A DNA stretch of 24,152 nucleotides from a virus, in IMG/VR virus record IMGVR_UViG_3300013130_000047, positions 1 through 24,152 of that record; one strand, 5' to 3'. The position numbers and the translations under genes are program-made. Under the pieces are notes generated by a model. It was not told the origin of the DNA. It did no database searches and saw only the letters and a program-made list of their open reading frames with translations. Shown piece by piece: positions 252 to 24,152 of this stretch (position 1 is the first letter of the stretch; the number at the start of each line of letters is the position of its first letter).

Positions 252-2726
252 ATGTCAATCATACAGATTTCTAAAATTCAGCAGAGATCGGGCGACCTTG
301 TCGATCTACCCCAGCTTGACGAAGCAGAGTTTGGTTTTGCTTCAGACGAAAAAAAACTGTTTATTGGTAAAGAATCACCCAACGAAAACATCGAAGTTCT
401 TACCAGCTATTCAGAGATATCATTTAGTCAAATTGAAGGTTCAAATAGCAATGTCTTTATAACAGATGCTACATTAGCTAATGGACAGATATTAGCATAT
501 GACGGAACTGATTGGGTTAACAAAGGCGGTAATGCTGGTGGATTAATCACATTAGGTAATGTATCAGATGTCAAGTTAGACGGCGGTGCTATAAGTTATG
601 TTTTGACAACTGACGGAGTGGGTAATCTTAGCTGGACTCCTAAAGGTGTAATATCATTAGACATCCTTACAGTGAGCAATGCTAACCCTGCAGTAGTAAC
701 ACTAACTTCAGATTTCGCATTAACTAATAACACAGAAGTCACCATTAATGGTATCACGGGTAACACAGGTTTTACTGCATTAAATGCAGGAACATTTTTC
801 TTACAAACTGTACCTACTAGTTTTAGTGAATACAAGCTTTATAATAGTCCGGGAACAGGCAGTCCATATGATGCTACAGCTATAACACCATTATATCCTT
901 TCACAAGTGCTACAGCTACTGATAGCTCAACAGATATAATAACAGTCGCTAATAGTGTACCGTTCGCAAATACCAATCCTGTAATATTTTATGGTGACCT
1001 AGCAAATAGCGGTATAGAAGCAAATACAACTTATTACATTTGCAATGTACCTACAACTACAACGATACAGATTTGCACTACAAGTGACGGCAACATAGGA
1101 AATCTATTAAGTCTAACAACAGCAACTATAACTGCTAATGTGTTTGTTACTGGAGGTAAAGTTACTTCTATAATAAGCGGAGGCAGCGGATCAGGTGGCG
1201 CAGCGGGTGGTGTAACAAGTTCTATACAATATAACTTTGCCGGTATCATAGTAGGTGATAGTAACTTTACATGGGCTAACTCTTCACAGTTATTGACAGT
1301 TAACGGTAATTCAAATATAGGTAATGTTACTATAACAACTGCAGGTGGTATAGGTACAGTGACTGCTAACTTGTTAGTATCAAATATTGCAACAGGTACT
1401 GCACCATTAACTGTAACCTCAACGACAAGAGTTGCAAACTTAAATGTAAGTTATAGTAACGTGAGTGATTTTGAAGTAGTTACTACTAGAACTACAGGAA
1501 CATTTTATCCTGCATTAGTTAGTGCATTGTCAGGCAATCTTGCCTTAGGTGCCAATGCAAATCTTTCGTTTAATGCAGCTACAGGCAACCTATCAGCAAC
1601 ACTTTTGACAGGCATATTAACAACAGCAAGTCAGCCAAACATTACAAGTGTTGGTACATTAACAAGTCTAGCTGTAACTGGCAATATTACAGCAGGAAAT
1701 CTTTATGCTAATACCGGAACATTAGGTGCTGCAACTATAACTGCGACTGGAAATGTTACAGGCGCGAATGTATCTGCAACTACCGGTGTTATATCAGGTA
1801 ACGGTAGTAGCATATCATCATTAAATGCTAGCAATATCACGTCAGGCACATTAGCTCAGGCAAGACTTGCAAATAGCTCTATCACCATTAATGGTGTTAC
1901 GATAGCACTAGGTGGCACAGGTACTATAGGCGCTAGCACTACTAATACATTAACATTAGGCGCATATTTGACAGGCGGTAGCTTTAATGGTAGTGCTGCA
2001 GTTACAGCAGCGGTCGATGCAACCCCTTCATCTACAGCCAGCAAAGTGGTAGCTAGAGATACTAACGGTAGCTTTAGTGCGAACATCATAACAGCAAACT
2101 TGAATGGTAATGCGACTACAGCAGGTACAGTGGTTACTGCGGCACAGCCAAATATTACCAGTGTTGGTACATTAACTTCATTAACTGTGAGTGGAAATAT
2201 TACTGCAGGGAATGTCGATGGAGGAAACTTAGTAAGTGCAAACTTCTTGCAGGGTACGGTAATAACAGCGGCACAACCAAATATAACTAGCGTAGGTACT
2301 CTTACAAGTTTAACAGTTTCAGGTAATGCTAATGTAGGTAATATAGGGGCTACTAATGGCGTATTCACTGGTAATCTAACAGTAGGTAACATTGTTAATA
2401 ACGGATATAATATACGTTCAGTAGGTACAGGAATCGCAGCAGCCGGCACAGTACAGGGAAATGCTACCGCAATAACTAAAGAATTTAATCTTGTATCAAG
2501 CGTTCCTAGCAGTTCTAACGGAGTAGTGTTACCTACAGCAGTAGCCGGTATGGCTATAAGTATTGTAAACTCTACGAGTACAACTATGAACGTTTATCCA
2601 GCTGCTGGAGCACAAATTAACGCATTAGGAACTAATATTCCTCTTACACATAGTGGAAATGCTACACTTCAGTACATAGCTCTAACTAGTACTCAATGGT
2701 ATACAGTAGGCGCCACTTACGCCTAA
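252..2726 (+). CDS. Long tail-fibre-like virion protein (824 aa)
   Basis: Probably a tail fibre or fibre-associated adhesin. The first ~45 residues (QISKIQQRSG, then AEFGFASDEKKLFIG) resemble the N-terminal domain of phage tropism determinants and tail fibres. A segment near residues 100-133 (VSDVKLDGG, GNLSWTPKG) recurs in the second fibre gene at 21970. The middle is rich in Asn, Thr, Gly and Ser and holds three copies of a QPNITSVGTLTSL repeat (1620-1700, 2130-2213, 2259-2342). The last ~80 residues (GVVLPTAVAGMAISIVNS, then TQWYTVGA) look like a compact beta-rich tip domain of the kind seen at fibre ends. There is no signal peptide or membrane segment. The start follows a TATAAATA promoter; its ribosome site is weak (GGTAAAG). 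Receptor binding is inferred. Confidence 0.8.
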   Translation: MSIIQISKIQQRSGDLVDLPQLDEAEFGFASDEKKLFIGKESPNENIEVLTSYSEISFSQIEGSNSNVFITDATLANGQILAYDGTDWVNKGGNAGGLITLGNVSDVKLDGGAISYVLTTDGVGNLSWTPKGVISLDILTVSNANPAVVTLTSDFALTNNTEVTINGITGNTGFTALNAGTFFLQTVPTSFSEYKLYNSPGTGSPYDATAITPLYPFTSATATDSSTDIITVANSVPFANTNPVIFYGDLANSGIEANTTYYICNVPTTTTIQICTTSDGNIGNLLSLTTATITANVFVTGGKVTSIISGGSGSGGAAGGVTSSIQYNFAGIIVGDSNFTWANSSQLLTVNGNSNIGNVTITTAGGIGTVTANLLVSNIATGTAPLTVTSTTRVANLNVSYSNVSDFEVVTTRTTGTFYPALVSALSGNLALGANANLSFNAATGNLSATLLTGILTTASQPNITSVGTLTSLAVTGNITAGNLYANTGTLGAATITATGNVTGANVSATTGVISGNGSSISSLNASNITSGTLAQARLANSSITINGVTIALGGTGTIGASTTNTLTLGAYLTGGSFNGSAAVTAAVDATPSSTASKVVARDTNGSFSANIITANLNGNATTAGTVVTAAQPNITSVGTLTSLTVSGNITAGNVDGGNLVSANFLQGTVITAAQPNITSVGTLTSLTVSGNANVGNIGATNGVFTGNLTVGNIVNNGYNIRSVGTGIAAAGTVQGNATAITKEFNLVSSVPSSSNGVVLPTAVAGMAISIVNSTSTTMNVYPAAGAQINALGTNIPLTHSGNATLQYIALTSTQWYTVGATYA
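1620..2342 (+). repeat. Three copies of a QPNITSVGTLTSL protein repeat
   Basis: Copies lie at 1620-1700, 2130-2213 and 2259-2342, each about 27-28 codons long (core QPNITSVGTLTSL, then x-V-x-G-N). The protein is nearly identical in the three copies, but the DNA differs at many third positions: gttggtacattaaca in the first, gtaggtactcttaca in the third. Similar repeats are common in phage fibres and probably form beta-structured shaft units. Confidence 0.85.
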
Positions 2727-2730
2727 GTAA

Positions 2731-2738
2731 GATAAATA
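2731..2738 (+). promoter_or_regulatory. Late promoter (GATAAATA) with downstream ribosome site
   Basis: GATAAATA followed by CTTTA is close to the extended T4 late consensus TATAAATACTATT. It starts four bases after the fibre stop codon. A Shine-Dalgarno-like AGGAAAA lies between it and the ATG at 2756 (17-nt gap). Confidence 0.7.
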
Positions 2739-2755
2739 CTTTATAGGAAAATATA

Positions 2756-3025
2756 ATGGCAGCAGCAATATACACACCAAGCGGATCAAGTCAACAGACA
2801 GCAGCATCAGGTACTGAAAAAGTTCGCATATCAACTACTAGTAGCGCAATTGCTGTGGTTGTAGGTAGCAATCCAACTGCTAATCTGTCAGCTTGTGAGA
2901 TTATTCCCGCAAACACTGTAAACAATAGTTTCATAGTCGGTGAAGGAAATAAGATCGCTTATATCAGTGTAAGCGGCACAGGCATATTTTCAGTCACAGA
3001 ACTTGGCGCAGCAGTTGGCGAATAA
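2756..3025 (+). CDS. Small probable virion protein (89 aa)
   Basis: I do not recognise the family. The 89 residues are rich in Ala, Ser, Thr and Gly, have only one Cys, and alternate beta-prone stretches (AIAVVVGSN, KIAYISVSGTGIFSVTEL) with short loops. No signal peptide or membrane segment is visible. It has its own late promoter and an AGGAAAA ribosome site, and sits between a tail fibre and another late structural gene, so a small beta-rich structural or decoration protein is the likeliest role. That role is inferred from context only. Confidence 0.8.
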   Translation: MAAAIYTPSGSSQQTAASGTEKVRISTTSSAIAVVVGSNPTANLSACEIIPANTVNNSFIVGEGNKIAYISVSGTGIFSVTELGAAVGE

Positions 3026-3052
3026 TAGTAGTGTAATAAAATAGCATTTTTT

Positions 3053-3060
3053 GATAAATA
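3053..3060 (+). promoter_or_regulatory. Late promoter (GATAAATA) with an unusually long leader
   Basis: GATAAATA lies 28 bases after the preceding stop codon. The next gene most plausibly starts at 3145, leaving an 84-nt gap, the longest of the + strand late-promoter gaps in this window. The leader carries several stem-loops, listed separately. Confidence 0.7.
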
Positions 3061-3068
3061 TAACATAT

Positions 3069-3088
3069 TCATAACGTTGTTGTTATGA
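3069..3088 (+). promoter_or_regulatory. 5'-leader stem-loop with GTTGTT loop
   Basis: TCATAAC (3069-3075) pairs perfectly with GTTATGA (3082-3088) around the loop GTTGTT. It begins nine bases after the late promoter, so it would sit at or next to the 5' end of the transcript. The gp18 leader has a comparable hairpin with loop GTTGT. A role in mRNA stability is inferred. Confidence 0.5.
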
Positions 3089-3094
3089 GTTTAT

Positions 3095-3126
3095 GCGGTC
3101 CCCGCCGCGTATCGGCTAGAACCCGA
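3095..3126 (+). promoter_or_regulatory. GC-rich leader segment with two short hairpins
   Basis: GCGG (3095-3098) can pair with CCGC (3102-3105 or 3105-3108), and TCGG (3112-3115) with CCGA (3123-3126). The segment is much richer in G and C than its surroundings and ends just before the AGGAG ribosome site near 3133. It lies in the untranslated leader if the ATG at 3145 is used. No known riboswitch or tRNA fold was recognised. Confidence 0.3.
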
Positions 3127-3144
3127 ACTTATAGGAGAAAAACA

Positions 3145-4272
3145 ATGGGTCGTCCACTTAAAATCGCAAAAGCACAAGCAGTCGTTACATTGACTGCAAC
3201 AAACGGAACTACTGAAGTAGTCACAACAAATGCAAACTTTACTAACCTAGGCATCATTGCTGGCATGCCATTCATTCCAGCAAGCAACGTAGGCAACCTA
3301 GTAGCCGGTACAACATACTGGATATTAGAAGTAGTGAATGCAGGAGCCAATAGTACTTTCACAGTTTCAGCAACAGAATTGTCAGCAAACCCAACTTTCA
3401 CTAAGTTTAATTTGGCAACAACTACTGCACAATCAGTAGCATTAACAGTTGGTGTCGTTGATGCATATTTCAATAACCCAATCGGCGGCGCAGGTTATCC
3501 TGCAACTAACGCAAATACATATGGTGTAGTTGGTGGTAACACAGCAATCTATGGTAGCCAAGTATTAGTTGGCGTATGCATGGGTGTAACAGGAACAGGT
3601 ACAATAACTGTCGCTGATGATAGCCCAGACATTGACGGTGTTGGCACAGACTTTGCAAACACATTCGTAGACGGTACAATCGTTTATGACGTTGATGGTA
3701 ACATTCTTGGTACTATTGATGACATAGCAAACGCAAATGCTGTATTCGCAACATTTGCAGCCAACGCAAGTGCAAACGTATCAGGTGCTGCTTATGTATA
3801 TGGCACACCGGAAGCAGGCTTTATCGTTCGTCAGAAAGGAAAGATGAAGTATCTCGTAAAAGGTACAACGTCAGGTCTAACACAGGCTTGCTATACAGCA
3901 AATGTAGCAAACACTGCATTATCACCTAACACGTTCACAATCACAGCAACTTATGCTAATACTTCAACAGCATATGTGCAGTCACTAAGTGACTATAGGT
4001 CAGAAGTGTTCCCAACAACTGTTGCTGCTGCTTCATTGGTAGCAGGTACAGTATATACTATTGAGTTTGTTGGCACAACTGACTTCACAGCAGTTGGTGC
4101 ATTTGCCAACATGACTGGTATCACATTCGTTGCTACTGGTGCAGGTTCAGGTACAGGTACAGCAGTACTTTCAAACATTGATCCTGACGTTATAGCATCG
4201 TTCAACAGCGCAGTTGCAGCAAACACTGCAAATGGTCTATTGAACCCAGTAGTAACCATCACAAACTCCTAA
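3145..4272 (+). CDS. Probable virion structural protein, MGRPLKI-type (375 aa)
   Basis: I place the start at ATG 3145 because ATAGGAGAAAA lies just upstream and the protein then begins MGRPLKIAKAQAV, an N-terminus I associate with structural proteins of T4-like aquatic phages. An in-frame ATG at 3085 would add 20 Arg-rich residues, lacks a ribosome site and overlaps leader hairpins. The protein is rich in Ala, Thr, Val and Asn. It includes a GVVGGNTAIYGSQVLVGV segment, a RQKGKMKYLV segment, and at about residues 297-340 a GTTDF-x-AVGA ... ATGAGSGTGTA module widespread in phage proteins. No enzyme motif is visible. It is probably exposed on the virion; the exact location is unknown. Confidence 0.8.
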   Translation: MGRPLKIAKAQAVVTLTATNGTTEVVTTNANFTNLGIIAGMPFIPASNVGNLVAGTTYWILEVVNAGANSTFTVSATELSANPTFTKFNLATTTAQSVALTVGVVDAYFNNPIGGAGYPATNANTYGVVGGNTAIYGSQVLVGVCMGVTGTGTITVADDSPDIDGVGTDFANTFVDGTIVYDVDGNILGTIDDIANANAVFATFAANASANVSGAAYVYGTPEAGFIVRQKGKMKYLVKGTTSGLTQACYTANVANTALSPNTFTITATYANTSTAYVQSLSDYRSEVFPTTVAAASLVAGTVYTIEFVGTTDFTAVGAFANMTGITFVATGAGSGTGTAVLSNIDPDVIASFNSAVAANTANGLLNPVVTITNS

Positions 4273-15602: not shown

Positions 15603-16241
15603 ATGGCAACAGCCTCACAATCATTGTTCAACATGACAGTAGCATCTGATAACGCCGGAGGCAATCAGGGCCTGTTGATGCCTAAGCTTCAATTCCGTTT
15701 CAGAGTTAACTTTCTGAACTTTGGTGTAGATGCTGCAGGCGGGTTGAGCTTAACAAAGCAAGTCATGGACTGCGCAAGACCCCAGCTACAGTTTGATGAA
15801 ATAACATTGAACGTATATAACTCACGTTTATATCTAGCAGGCAAACATGCATGGCAACCATTGACTGTCAACATTCGTGACGATGCTTCAGGCACAGTCG
15901 CAAGAGCAGTAGGACAGCAGTTACAGAAGCAGATGGACATGGTAGAACAAGCTTCAGCAGCAACTGGACAAGATTACAAGTTCCAAACAAACATTGAAAT
16001 CTTAGACGGTGGTAACGGTGCATTCGCTCCAACAGTATTAGAAACTTGGGAGCTATATGGCTGCTATCTACAACAAGCAAACTATCAGACATTAAACTAT
16101 GCAACAAGCGATGCTGTATCAATAGCATTGACTATACGCTATGACAACGCAATCCAAGCCCCACTTGGCGCAGGCGTTGGTGCAGACATTGGAAGAATAT
16201 TAGGTGGCGACAGCGTAACAGGTATCGGCGCTGGCACATAA
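15603..16241 (+). CDS. gp19: Tail tube protein gp19 (212 aa)
   Basis: Subunit of the inner tail tube through which DNA passes. The order and pattern fit T4 gp19: a flexible N-terminus, LMPKLQFRFRVNFLNFG, then LTKQVMDCARPQLQFDEITL with a VYNSRLYLAGKHAWQPLTVNIRD beta block, then NIEILDGG...TWELYGCYL and DAVSIALTIRYDNAIQ near the end. T4 gp19 is about 163 residues; the extra length is spread between N- and C-termini, the latter Gly-rich. It lies directly behind the sheath gene with its own terminator, promoter and ribosome site, which fits the need for many copies. Confidence 0.9.
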   Translation: MATASQSLFNMTVASDNAGGNQGLLMPKLQFRFRVNFLNFGVDAAGGLSLTKQVMDCARPQLQFDEITLNVYNSRLYLAGKHAWQPLTVNIRDDASGTVARAVGQQLQKQMDMVEQASAATGQDYKFQTNIEILDGGNGAFAPTVLETWELYGCYLQQANYQTLNYATSDAVSIALTIRYDNAIQAPLGAGVGADIGRILGGDSVTGIGAGT

Positions 16242-16247
16242 TAAATA
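16240..16247 (+). promoter_or_regulatory. Late-promoter-like octamer (AATAAATA), seven bases before ATG
   Basis: AATAAATA overlaps the gp19 stop codon. The ATG of the next gene follows after seven bases, and no Shine-Dalgarno is visible. If it is a promoter the mRNA would be nearly leaderless. Confidence 0.5.
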
Positions 16248-16254
16248 ACTTATT

Positions 16255-17547
16255 ATGGGATTCTTTCAAGACTTACTAAAAGGCGCTGCCGGAACTTTTT
16301 TCGGCAGCGATAACCTTAGAGATTATACCCACGCTAGCAAAACGTTTAGGCCTAATAACTATCAGTATGCGCCTAAGTTCAAGTTTCTATTTCATACATA
16401 TTTTGAAATATCAAACACGGCATACGACTTTGATTTAAAAGAAACTACACAACAGAATTTCGGTCTTTTAGTGAGAGATGTAAAACTACCATCTTTCACA
16501 ATGCAAACCTATCAAATGAATCAATACAATCGTAAACGTATTGTTCAGACAAAAATAAAATATGATCCGGTAAATATAACTTTTCACGATGATAACAGTA
16601 GTTTAATAACAAAATTATGGGCATCTTATTACACCTATTACTACAAAGATGGTGCAAATCCTAAAGTGATATTCGGTGGTAAAAGAGGAGCGAACTCAAC
16701 TACTGATTTAAGCGTCCCGCCGGGTCCCGGTGACGTGAGGGGATTAGCGGGTGCGGGAAGTGGCAAAGCAGTCAGCCCTACACTAGTGACTTACTATGAC
16801 AGAAATCTATATCAACCTACTATAACAGGTAACGGTGATTGGGGATATATAGGAGAATCAGCGAAGCCTGGCACTGCAGATCCTACAAAGGTACCTTTCT
16901 TCAAAAATATTACAGTATTTGGATTTCATGATAAAAACTTTATAGCCTACACTTTAATCAATCCTATAATCACAAACTTTGCTCACGACACCTATAACTA
17001 CGATGAAGGTGGCGGAGTGATGAAAAACACTATGACTATTGATTATGAAACTGTAGTTTATAATGAAGGTGCTATAGATGGTCGCAAGCCCGGCGATATA
17101 GTAACTGGATTCGGTGACGTAGCTACATATGATAGAACTTTAAGTCCTATAGCTAAGCCAGGTTCTAATGGAACTATCTTAGGTCAAGGTGGACTTATAG
17201 ATTCAGTTGGTGGTGCAATAAAAGATTTGGCAGGTGGAGGAAATGCCATCAGAGCGATACAAACTATAGGTACAGCATACAAAACAGCAGGAAGAATAGA
17301 TGTCAAGGCTACTTTAAAAACAGAACTCAAAAATGCCTTTAGCAAAAATCTAAAATCCGCTATAGCAGGAGATCCTCCTAAAACTAGAAATCTACAGTTT
17401 GAATTTCTAAGTGCAGGTTCTACGCCGATACCGGATAAGACTGCCAATAGCCCAACTGCAGGTGCACAGAGCCGTCCTCAAAATCCAACAACGACACCAG
17501 CAGCCGGTCAACAAGTAAGTCAATCTCCAAGTAGAGCGGGAGGATAA
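16255..17547 (+). CDS. Second tube-fold tail protein, gp19/gp54 type (430 aa)
   Basis: Residues ~35-125 have the start of a tail-tube fold: YAPKFKFLFHTYFEIS, then FGLLVRDVKLPSFTMQTYQM, then RIVQTKIKYDPVNITFHDD and a LWASYYTYYYKDG helix. After a Gly/Pro-rich insert, residues ~215-275 resume with FKNITVFGFHDKNFIAYTLI, NPIITNFAHDTYNY and MTIDYETVVYNEG. This matches the gp19 family, in which gp54 and gp48 of T4 start the tube at the baseplate. The C-terminal ~130 residues are low-complexity (Ala, Gly, Pro, Gln). Length and position fit a tube initiator or tube-end protein better than a second shaft subunit, but I cannot separate gp48, gp54 and a novel paralogue. No ribosome site precedes the ATG. 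Confidence 0.75.
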   Translation: MGFFQDLLKGAAGTFFGSDNLRDYTHASKTFRPNNYQYAPKFKFLFHTYFEISNTAYDFDLKETTQQNFGLLVRDVKLPSFTMQTYQMNQYNRKRIVQTKIKYDPVNITFHDDNSSLITKLWASYYTYYYKDGANPKVIFGGKRGANSTTDLSVPPGPGDVRGLAGAGSGKAVSPTLVTYYDRNLYQPTITGNGDWGYIGESAKPGTADPTKVPFFKNITVFGFHDKNFIAYTLINPIITNFAHDTYNYDEGGGVMKNTMTIDYETVVYNEGAIDGRKPGDIVTGFGDVATYDRTLSPIAKPGSNGTILGQGGLIDSVGGAIKDLAGGGNAIRAIQTIGTAYKTAGRIDVKATLKTELKNAFSKNLKSAIAGDPPKTRNLQFEFLSAGSTPIPDKTANSPTAGAQSRPQNPTTTPAAGQQVSQSPSRAGG

Positions 17548-18868: not shown

Positions 18869-19495
18869 ATGAAAAGTCTTAAACATTACATCGTAGAGAG
18901 CTTGCACACTTATAATGTCACCATCAAGATAGCTGGTGAGATAGATAAGAATTTTTTAGATTTGTTTACATACAATCTTAAAAAGTTTGAACCTGTCAAC
19001 ATAAGCAAGCCAGTAACTACACCTATTCAGAAATCACCATATGGATTTCCTAATCTTAGTAATGAACCTGTAACTATTTTAAAATGCGAGTTTCGTTATC
19101 CTTGCACTGAGCCAATGGTACAACAGATGGCACAGTTATTAGGATATAACGTCAACATGGTACGTCTAGTCGATACAAAATATGATGAAAGTATTGATGA
19201 AGAGAACAAGCAATATGAGAACCAAATGGATCATAGTCCAGTACTCACACATGCTGAGATGGAGGACGCAGGTGATCCAGCAAAGAAAGCTAGCAAAGAC
19301 TACGGTAACTCATATCTCAATACTATTAAAGATAATAGTAAAGAAGATAAGATGGAAATGCAGTTTGATGCAAAAAAGACTCCTATCGCATTCGACCCAT
19401 TCAAGCCCGAGACTTATGTAGACAATAAAGGTCAAAAAAGTCCGATATCAAACATTAAACTACCAGCTAAACCAAAGACTGGCGCGATGGTATAA
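18869..19495 (+). CDS. Probable head-associated protein with capsid-targeting N-terminus (208 aa)
   Basis: The first ten residues, MKSLKHYIVE, line up without gaps with the T4 capsid-targeting peptide MKTYQEFIAE, which sends internal proteins into the prohead and is cut after Glu10 by protease gp21 (consensus I/L-x-E). I8-V9-E10 fits that rule. The mature part has a beta-alpha unit (YNVTIKIAGEIDKNFLDLF), TPIQKSPYGFPNLSNEPVTI, CEFRYPCTEPMVQQMAQLLG, then an acidic, Lys-rich, probably disordered second half. I recall similar proteins in aquatic T4-like phages without a known function. It lies directly after small terminase and is co-transcribed with the 787-aa gene. Packaging into the head is inferred from the targeting peptide only. 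Confidence 0.8.
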   Translation: MKSLKHYIVESLHTYNVTIKIAGEIDKNFLDLFTYNLKKFEPVNISKPVTTPIQKSPYGFPNLSNEPVTILKCEFRYPCTEPMVQQMAQLLGYNVNMVRLVDTKYDESIDEENKQYENQMDHSPVLTHAEMEDAGDPAKKASKDYGNSYLNTIKDNSKEDKMEMQFDAKKTPIAFDPFKPETYVDNKGQKSPISNIKLPAKPKTGAMV

Positions 19496-19507
19496 GAGGA
19501 AATAATC

Positions 19508-21871
19508 ATGGAATTTAAAGACATTCTGTCAAAGATTGCTGAACTAGATATCATAGAAGAAGCAAAGAAAGAATCAACTGCCAAGAAAGATCATAAGGCT
19601 GAAAAGGCAGGTAAGAAAGTTGCCAAAGACATTGAATATGATGAAGGTCACAAGGGCAAAGATGACAAGAAAGCTGAAAAGGCTGGTAAAAAAGTAACTA
19701 AAGATATCGAATACGATGACAAGAAAGATAAGAAAAAGAAATCTTTGAAAGATTGGATTGAGATTGTTGGCAAAGAAATAGTTAATGAAGCAGAACAGAT
19801 ACAAGTTGTTCCTGCAAAATCAACAACACAAGTAATCAAACAAGGTAATAAAACATTAGGTACAGTGACTAATCCACAACTTGCTTCACAGATTAAACAA
19901 AGTATCGGCAAAGGCGAGATGAGTTTAGCCGGTACAGAGATAAAAGAAGAAGAAGTTGAAGAGAGTGGACTACAAGCCTATCTCGGTAATAAAAAATACG
20001 GCAAAGCAGGTATGGATGCATTACGTAAAGCAGGTCGTGAAGGCGCAAGCAAAGAAAAGATGGCACAGATTCGCGCACAGCACGATAAGTTAGATGAAGC
20101 TGACAAACCAAACTACTGGGTCAAGAACGAGAAAACAAATCAATATCATGGTCCATATGGTAGTGAACGTGCAGCAAAAGAGGGCGGCGTGATCGGTAAG
20201 ATCGAAAAATACCCATCAAGTGTGCGTAATCCTAAATCAGTAAACAGATCACCTGAACATGCTGCTAATGCTGCAAAAGCAGGCGGTGCTATCAAAGTAA
20301 ATGAAAAGGCAGTAAGCAAGGCTCAACAAAAGTTCATGGGCATGGTACATGCAGCACAGAAAGGTGAGAAGCCAGCAAGTAAAGCTGTTGGTGATGTTGC
20401 TAAGTCCATGAAGAAAGGCGATGTCAAAGATTTTGCAAAGACTAAACACAAAGGTCTTCCAGAAAAGAAAAAGAAAACAAATGAAGCAGAAAGACCAAGC
20501 GACCAAGTAGATATGGGTGCAGGTCTAGGTGCAGGACGAAATGCAAAAGTTTTAGAAGCAAAACCAGACTTTATAGATTTAGATAAAGATGGTAATAAGA
20601 AAGAATCAATGAAAAAGGCAGCACAAGATGCCAAAAAGAAAAAGAAGGTACATGAAGCTATGAACACATTAGAAGCAGCCTATCACGAAGGCAAATCACA
20701 TGGTCTAAGCAAGCATGGTTATTCATGCCGCTATAACGAAGGCAGTGAAGAACACAGACGTTATCATAAAGGATTCGTAGAGGGTCTTGATGAATGCTAT
20801 GGAATGGGCATCAAGAATAAGCCAATCATTGGTATGGGTGAAAATGTACCAGCGACTGTTCCAGGTATGGCAAATGCAGCAATGCCAGCAATGGAAGATG
20901 ATATGGGCGAAGGTAATGCATTTACCGGTAAACTCGCATCAACTCCACCAGGTGGAACATTTAAGTTAGGTGATAAGACATTCAAAGATACTTCAAGCCT
21001 AGAAGAATATGCTTTTGAATCACTAGATAAACAACTAGATGATCTATTAAACGAAGGTATCATTAATGAAGGATTGAGCGTAAGCATGTCAACTGGTCAG
21101 CAGGGTGCGCCTGATAGCGTAAGTGTTACAGCTAGCGACGATGATGCAGGCAAGTTATTAGCTTTCATCAAGCAAGTTGGATTAGGCGGTATGGGCGGTG
21201 ATAGTCCAGAAGCAGCACACGGTGAACCAGCAGCAGTGGTCACATCAGTAAGTGATTACGGCGGACCAAAATTCAGTAGCGATAATCCAGACATGGCTGC
21301 ACTACTTCAGAAAGTAGGTGTAGACGGTGAAGATTATAAGGAAGAACAAGGCGGATCATGTCAGGTTCACGGCATGGCAGAGGCTGAGTGCGGTTGCGAA
21401 AACAAAAAAGTTGATGAAGTAGAAACAGAAGATCAAATGGAATTTGAAGTAGCAGAAGATAGTGCAGGTGCAGATGAACAAGCAGAAACAGCAGCAGATG
21501 AAAATGCAGAAGCAGCAGAAGATTCAGCATTAGCAAAAGCAGCACAGCAAAACAAAACTAATACTGTCAACGAAGGCGGTGACGGTGGTGAAGCTAGCGA
21601 AGAGACAGTAGATAATAGTCCTGGATCAGGTGAATCAAGTGTTAGCGACAAACAAGAACAACTTGATGAATGGGCTAATAACGCAGGACAAAAAGGCACA
21701 GATACTGCATTCGAACAAGATATTGAGTTTATGACTAAGGTGATCTCAGGTGGATTAAACAAACCTAAATCAACTGGTCAAACAACTATTCCTGTCATTG
21801 CAGGACAAAATGCTCGTACAGGCGATGAAGATGTTGTAGCTTGGAAGAGATTAGCAGGTCTATTAAAGTAA
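19508..21871 (+). CDS. Mosaic Lys/Ala/Glu-rich protein, possible head-internal precursor (787 aa)
   Basis: A string of short modules. Residues 1-80 are basic and contain two copies of KAEKAGKK-V-x-KDIEYD. Residues ~155-197 hold a YLGNKKYGKAGMDALRKAGR unit. Residues ~270-318 match DUF3008 (SKAQQKFMGMVHAAQKGEKP ... FAKTKHKGLP). Residues 354-368 form an EF-hand-like DFIDLDKDGNKKE loop. Residues ~386-432 resemble ribosome-modulation-factor-like motifs (AYHEGKSHGL ... CRYNEGSEEH ... GFVEGLDEC). Residues ~522-560 are beta-rich; ~640-720 very acidic; the end has DVVAWKRLAGLLK. Hydrophobic-x-E followed by A or G recurs at module borders (E94, E197, E350, E383, E516, E521, E689), matching the T4 gp21 cleavage rule. 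It follows the 208-aa gene with AGAGGA as ribosome site. Function unknown; scaffold or internal protein is inferred. Confidence 0.8.
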   Translation: MEFKDILSKIAELDIIEEAKKESTAKKDHKAEKAGKKVAKDIEYDEGHKGKDDKKAEKAGKKVTKDIEYDDKKDKKKKSLKDWIEIVGKEIVNEAEQIQVVPAKSTTQVIKQGNKTLGTVTNPQLASQIKQSIGKGEMSLAGTEIKEEEVEESGLQAYLGNKKYGKAGMDALRKAGREGASKEKMAQIRAQHDKLDEADKPNYWVKNEKTNQYHGPYGSERAAKEGGVIGKIEKYPSSVRNPKSVNRSPEHAANAAKAGGAIKVNEKAVSKAQQKFMGMVHAAQKGEKPASKAVGDVAKSMKKGDVKDFAKTKHKGLPEKKKKTNEAERPSDQVDMGAGLGAGRNAKVLEAKPDFIDLDKDGNKKESMKKAAQDAKKKKKVHEAMNTLEAAYHEGKSHGLSKHGYSCRYNEGSEEHRRYHKGFVEGLDECYGMGIKNKPIIGMGENVPATVPGMANAAMPAMEDDMGEGNAFTGKLASTPPGGTFKLGDKTFKDTSSLEEYAFESLDKQLDDLLNEGIINEGLSVSMSTGQQGAPDSVSVTASDDDAGKLLAFIKQVGLGGMGGDSPEAAHGEPAAVVTSVSDYGGPKFSSDNPDMAALLQKVGVDGEDYKEEQGGSCQVHGMAEAECGCENKKVDEVETEDQMEFEVAEDSAGADEQAETAADENAEAAEDSALAKAAQQNKTNTVNEGGDGGEASEETVDNSPGSGESSVSDKQEQLDEWANNAGQKGTDTAFEQDIEFMTKVISGGLNKPKSTGQTTIPVIAGQNARTGDEDVVAWKRLAGLLK

Positions 21872-21966: not shown

Positions 21967-24152
<2,186 letters not shown>

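Follow-up and report, generated by a model that had tools for sequence, protein, structure and literature searches.

A mosaic phage protein with hydrophobic-x-Glu sites at its module borders is a likely prohead-core precursor of several small head peptides

The scaffold protein gp22 of phage T4 is a known substrate of the prohead protease gp21. Among the processed T4 head proteins there is precedent both for retention (the internal proteins and Alt, the latter trimmed at both ends) and for loss (gp22 and gp67 fragments) (PMC9026906). In SPN3US and phiKZ, the long propeptides of gp53 and gp54 are cut at several Glu sites by the prohead protease (PMC10052503), and polyvalent proteins, which are multidomain phage chains packaged in the head and processed, have been compared to polyproteins by the authors who described them (PMC5512222). 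We found no description of phage polyproteins of the mosaic type in the open-access literature searched.

Here, we analysed a virus fragment of 24,152 bases (the window, meaning this whole stretch), in which an ORF at 19508-21871 (+) encodes a mosaic protein of 787 aa. We propose that this protein is a prohead-core precursor that carries targeting signals at both ends and is cut many times by a gp21-type S77 protease to yield several small head peptides. We consider this reading likely (probability about 0.82); cleavage, targeting and the fate of the fragments are inferred. Upstream of the mosaic gene, PHROG and Pfam identify a tail sheath, two tail-tube proteins and a gp4-type head-completion nuclease, along with what we take to be a probable gp16-like small terminase, on our own reading only. 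The two tail-tube paralogues (212 and 430 aa) lie side by side at 15603-17547, as they do in PA5oct. A tail-fibre-like gene follows the mosaic gene; this ORF (21970-24150) contains a long collagen-like G-A-T-G repeat and runs off the end of the window. The fragment holds neither a protease nor a capsid gene of its own, and the link to them is made via relatives only. The gene preceding the mosaic gene and the successive parts of the mosaic protein are listed below, with a slash marking the putative cut and h denoting a hydrophobic residue.

18869-19495 (+): upstream gene, 208 aa, with the start MKSLKHYIVE/S, like the T4 IPIII capsid-targeting sequence
19508-19561 (+): N-terminal targeting-like peptide MEFKDILSKIAELDIIEE, ending in h-x-E/A (E18)
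19562-19789 (+): module 19-94, a Lys-rich AEKAGKKVAKDIEYD repeat ending in VNE94/A, present in 38 of 49 relatives
19790-19963 (+): module 95-152, a small beta-beta-beta-alpha unit ending in VEE152/S, in 21 of 49 relatives (AlphaFold elements E98-H134)
19964-20098 (+): module 153-197, a two-helix unit beginning SGLQAYLGNKKYG and ending in LDE197/A, in 3 of 49 relatives
20099-20557 (+): modules 198-350, comprising a YWVKNEKTNQYHGPYG unit, a DUF3008 unit and a GAGLGAGR unit, ending in VLE350/A; net charge +15
20309-20470 (+): DUF3008 (PF11450), residues 268-321; Pfam E 2.9e-7, 31 bits against a curated cut-off of 24
20558-20656 (+): module 351-383, a KPDFIDLDKDGNKKE unit ending in VHE383/A, in 30 of 49 relatives
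20657-20911 (+): module 384-468, a helical hairpin (pLDDT about 95) ending in MGE468/G
20912-21070 (+): module 469-516 plus linker, with the double site LNE516/G and INE521/G
21071-21382 (+): module 522-625, a beta-beta-alpha unit with an acidic Cys-bearing tail, ending in MAE625/A
21383-21574 (+): module 626-689, a Cys pair and a strongly acidic stretch, ending in VNE689/G; net charge -16
21575-21670 (+): acidic linker 690-721, ending in LDE721/W
21671-21868 (+): C-terminal module 722-787, nearly universal (47 of 49 relatives)
21842-21868 (+): C-terminal tail WKRLAGLLK, a motif common to the scaffold C-terminus

Database searches gave little functional information. DUF3008 was the sole Pfam match in the window mosaic protein, with no peptidase or enzyme domain; four long relatives gave no Pfam match at all, and PHROG matches were unnamed apart from a weak one labelled virion structural protein. 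No relative turned up when GTDB genomes were scanned for a link to a host. When a DUF3008-free relative (residues 1-489) was compared with cultured phages by tblastn, no match was obtained, and close homologues are therefore carried by no isolate of that collection.

The mosaic protein contains 11 matches to the motif [ILVM]-x-E/[AGS], compared with 3.7 expected from local shuffles, and none of 300 shuffles reached 11. A preliminary description of the protein, made from sequence alone, had named seven candidate gp21-type sites (E94/A, E197/A, E350/A, E383/A, E516/G, E521/G and E689/G); all seven were confirmed at these residues, and E18/A, E152/S, E468/G and E625/A bring the actual total to at least 11. 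The subset hNE[AGS] is found four times against an expectation of 0.2. As controls, hxD[AGS] is absent, and hxQ, hxK, hE, hxxE and the reversed motif all lie near expectation; other strong h-x-E places, mainly LDE721/W, differ in the residue that follows. The same pattern holds in 50 non-redundant relatives, where the strict motif was observed 538 times (174 expected) and hxD[AGS] was depleted three-fold (57 vs 166), with hE[AGS] at 179 vs 177, hxxE[AGS] at 186 vs 172, the reversed motif at 148 vs 175, and only a mild excess for hxK (270 vs 209) and hxQ (114 vs 98). The site count exceeded expectation in all 50 relatives and did so with p<0.01 in 36, bearing in mind that the relatives are not independent and that z-scores and pair counts are thus inflated. 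With the same counting, T4 gp22 as positive control gave 10 sites vs 2.6 expected. Composition does not account for the dependence on E and on its spacing. An artefact of chance or composition is the obvious objection to such counts, and the richness of the protein in E, A, G and K speaks for it; however, the excess is not reproduced by shuffles or by reversed or substituted motifs, and the conservation and border tests given below are positive, which all but excludes this explanation.

One IMG/VR scan found 469 relatives of the mosaic protein, 80 of which were fetched. Their lengths range from about 520 to 1497 aa. Both the start (MDFKsLLsqLdqLnEA) and the end (W-K-K-L-A-G-I/L) are constant, and in the interior modules are gained, lost and reordered; module 19-94, for instance, lies near the N-terminus in some and near the C-terminus in others. 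Ends of local alignments fell within 4 aa of a site in 22% of cases, compared with 11% expected (2.03-fold), while the controls gave 0.57 for hxD, 0.66 for hxK, 0.32 for hxQ and 1.07 for non-hydrophobic xE. Breaks were also enriched at hxE followed by other residues (1.87-fold) and at hE[AGS] (1.79-fold), which leaves it uncertain exactly which residue follows the cut. Within the window protein, homology breaks most often at LDE721/W, with 22 alignment edges at 721. When chains were divided at the sites, whole inter-site cassettes with different neighbours on both sides were encountered 42 times, compared with 0-15 times when all cuts were shifted by 8-25 residues. The site Glu residues are better conserved than other Glu residues (mean 0.80 vs 0.50; Mann-Whitney p=0.002), and E350, E383 and E521 are kept in 100% of the relatives having that column. 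An AlphaFold model built with 42 sequences is of low confidence (mean pLDDT 55), with small separate units visible; 10 of 11 sites lie in predicted coil between mini-domains, compared with 8 of 15 E[AGS] positions taken as controls. What the sequences show directly is thus the sites, how well they are conserved and how they match module borders.

These results bear on several claims of the preliminary description. Its placement of the sites at or near borders of unrelated modules held, and the homologue check that it had suggested had the predicted outcome, hydrophobic-x-E being kept while modules shuffle. Its polyprotein idea, in which the chain is cut into many head peptides, is supported; cleavage and retention of the pieces in the head have not been shown. 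Its very acidic C-terminal third also held (net charge -35), whereas the very basic N-terminal third was an overstatement: the first third is only mildly basic, at net +9 (54 K/R, 45 D/E), with +15 in residues 198-350.

Two relatives contain a second site-rich protein, encoded at 103643-105547 in the genome designated G002 (634 aa, 11 sites vs about 3 expected) and at 93458-96253 in G003 (931 aa, 12 sites vs about 3 expected). It is built differently from the window mosaic protein and has the SALQAYLG module in common with it; module 153-197, including its E/S start, recurs in this second gene in both genomes. We regard it as a likely second polyprotein.

The head machinery is visible in relatives. 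Near-complete G002 (174 kb) encodes, on one strand, a portal, an S77 protease (PF03420, E 4e-29), a scaffold and a gp23-type major capsid protein (MCP). Among its 168 ORFs, the scaffold ranks first in site excess (14 vs 2.4) and the mosaic protein second (14 vs 3.0); in G003 the mosaic protein ranks first. PF07068 and PF03420 were missing from most first-round contigs, which were mostly fragments, although G003 measures 171 kb, and MCP-bearing contigs were used in their place. Six further large contigs with a related MCP all carry an S77 protease, and at least four of them contain long site-rich ORFs with mosaic-protein modules. In 80 of 80 related MCPs, L-x-E followed by S, N, T or A precedes the conserved shell domain, at the position where T4 gp23 has FLTE/A. 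The polyprotein reading is further supported because relatives thus carry a T4-type S77 protease, an MCP with an L-x-E site at the gp23 cut position, and a scaffold with a like site density and C-terminal tail.

Two rival readings can be weighed here. According to the first, the protein is an uncut structural head or neck protein, a flexible modular chain whose h-x-E runs are merely a style of linker. The location of the gene, adjoining tail-tube, head-completion and probable small-terminase genes, is in favour of this, but the excess depends on the Glu and on its spacing (D is depleted three-fold), only the scaffold and the polyproteins of the genome show it, and module borders coincide with sites; we consider this reading unlikely. 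According to the second, the protein is an injected effector of the polyvalent type that travels intact in the head and is not cut until it has reached the new host. Polyvalent proteins do combine several domains in one chain that is delivered together with the phage DNA, and peptidases embedded in the chain are thought to release them (PMC5512222). However, Pfam shows DUF3008 only, without a peptidase or enzyme domain, and the sites fit the specificity of the head protease, making this alternative very improbable.

Both ends of the mosaic proteins carry putative entry signals. An h-x-E lies within about 21 aa of the start in 47 of 50 relatives, followed by A, G or S in 33, and these N-terminal peptides resemble MKTYQEFIAE/A of T4 IPII/IPIII. 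At the other end, 46 of 48 full-length mosaic proteins have an xxLAG-like C-terminus. A long ORF ending in LAG[ILVM] is found in 78 of 80 MCP contigs; the 40 listed are scaffold-like and end in KRLAGL or close to it. The shared tail is thus established, and from the motifs we infer that it is an entry or core-binding tag, with neither head entry nor binding shown. The tag can itself be cut off where a canonical site stands 11-19 aa from the C-terminal end, as in LNE/SVSDWKKLAGI, which is the case in 23 of 48 relatives; PA5oct shows a like arrangement. KRLAGL is almost invariant as the scaffold C-terminus (G002 scaffold, 2463-3563) and also recurs internally, followed by h-x-E/S, in head proteins of PA5oct and CBB; it could be a short head-entry or core-binding motif. 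The neighbours encoded upstream have an N-terminal h-x-E[AGS] in 72 of 79 cases, with M[KR]SLKxYIxE/S in nearly all loci, and the 208-aa product in the window is likely an internal head protein.

Evidence from virions comes from isolates. The MCP of PA5oct (Arenbergviridae) is 66% identical to that of G002, and the gene order matches. Its syntenic counterpart of the mosaic protein, YP_010678933, which has ILRLAGVQAVKE/S and ISKLAGISNVEE/S, is annotated ESI-MS/MS, as is the counterpart of the 208-aa upstream gene, YP_010678932 (CTS-type); the PA5oct scaffold, ending in RRLAGIK, has no such annotation. Site excess in PA5oct is only weakly linked to detection by mass spectrometry (detected proteins, 84 sites vs 62.8 expected; others, 67 vs 57.6). 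The PA5oct annotation lists two head maturation proteases, at 84079-84711 and 180349-181020, each marked ESI-MS/MS. In phage CBB, counterparts detected in the virion are CBB_210, which corresponds to the upstream gene, CBB_213 and CBB_214. DUF3008 and KPDFLDLDKDGNKKE units occur in proteins annotated as virion proteins in Synechococcus phage S-SCSM1, a phage whose virion proteins were determined by mass spectrometry, and the unit of module 351-383 is present in the S-SCSM1 virion protein QFG06349. Since the syntenic proteins of PA5oct and CBB and the cyanophage relatives of the modules are found in virions, some products probably stay as internal head peptides; we consider it likely that at least some do, and which pieces these are is unresolved.

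A third rival remains possible, namely that cutting occurs at the same sites but the chain serves as a sacrificial helper of core or scaffold, after the manner of T4 gp67, gp68 or gp22, its fragments leaving the head to free space for DNA without any later function. The C-terminal tail and site density resemble those of the scaffold, the C-terminal third is acidic, and T4 gp22 and gp67 fragments mostly exit the head (PMC9026906). Against this, conserved mini-folds and the change of cassettes between phages would not be needed for filler, the PA5oct annotation marks the counterpart, but not the scaffold, as detected in the virion, and DUF3008 and KPDF units occur in annotated virion proteins of S-SCSM1.

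For the preferred reading, a prohead-core precursor of several head peptides, we propose the following hypothetical scheme, in which (i) the N-terminal peptide of the capsid-targeting type and the scaffold-like C-terminal tail would bring the precursor into the assembling head, as inferred from the motifs; (ii) the gp21-type S77 protease, acting in trans, would recognise hydrophobic-x-Glu in flexible linkers and cut after the Glu at most of the sites, which number about 11 or more; (iii) cutting would release about ten small folded or charged peptides; and (iv) modules are gained, lost and moved as cassettes bordered by cutting sites. With cassette borders that are also cutting sites, one gene could therefore alter the set of head peptides without new assembly signals. 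A bolder version, which we regard as somewhat less likely than not, is that the head cargo of giant T4-like phages comes from a true polyprotein system, with constant tags at both ends, a trans-acting prohead protease and cassettes freely exchanged, also between two polyprotein genes, the products entering the head along with the DNA and reaching the host as a set that changes quickly between phages. If the proposal is correct, it would reveal a polyprotein strategy of tailed phages in which processing is done by the head maturation protease, and it would account for a family of long 'hypothetical' mosaic proteins, to which all relatives from the single scan belong. It would also provide a rule for predicting internal head peptides, in which chains are cut at h-x-E and the pieces searched separately. 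The short scaffold-type tail (WKKLAGI), suggested as a head-entry tag, could serve to bring foreign peptides into phage heads.

Compared with the known systems, the mosaic protein resembles SPN3US/phiKZ gp53 and gp54 in its multiple Glu sites, but the phiKZ protease has the specificity S/A/G-x-E (PMC13282480), one mature domain remains after processing, and no module shuffling is reported in the relevant sections (PMC10052503). Polyvalent proteins consist of enzyme and effector domains with embedded peptidases, in contrast to the small domains and trans-acting prohead protease proposed here, and membership of that class is not met, Pfam giving DUF3008 only. The likeness to cyanophage DUF3008 (PF11450) proteins is confined to residues 268-321; those are short stand-alone proteins of 69 and 91 aa in two isolates, one of them annotated as a virion protein. 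With T4 gp22, gp67 and gp68 the protein shares many [LI]-x-E sites per chain followed by A, G or S, which are cut in T4 by the S77 prohead protease. However, where gp22 forms a single coiled-coil scaffold, the mosaic protein strings together swappable modules that are unrelated to one another; its phage group has a separate gp22-type scaffold, located in G002 in the gp22 place between protease and MCP. Membership of the gp22 family is accordingly not met: the mosaic gene lies elsewhere, and only the C-terminal tail is in common. T4 IPI-IPIII and Alt likewise have a short N-terminal peptide ending in h-x-E/A and variable cargo behind a constant signal; T4 encodes these in one gene each, whereas the mosaic protein carries several units per chain, each joint marked by a site, and has a C-terminal tag of the scaffold type.
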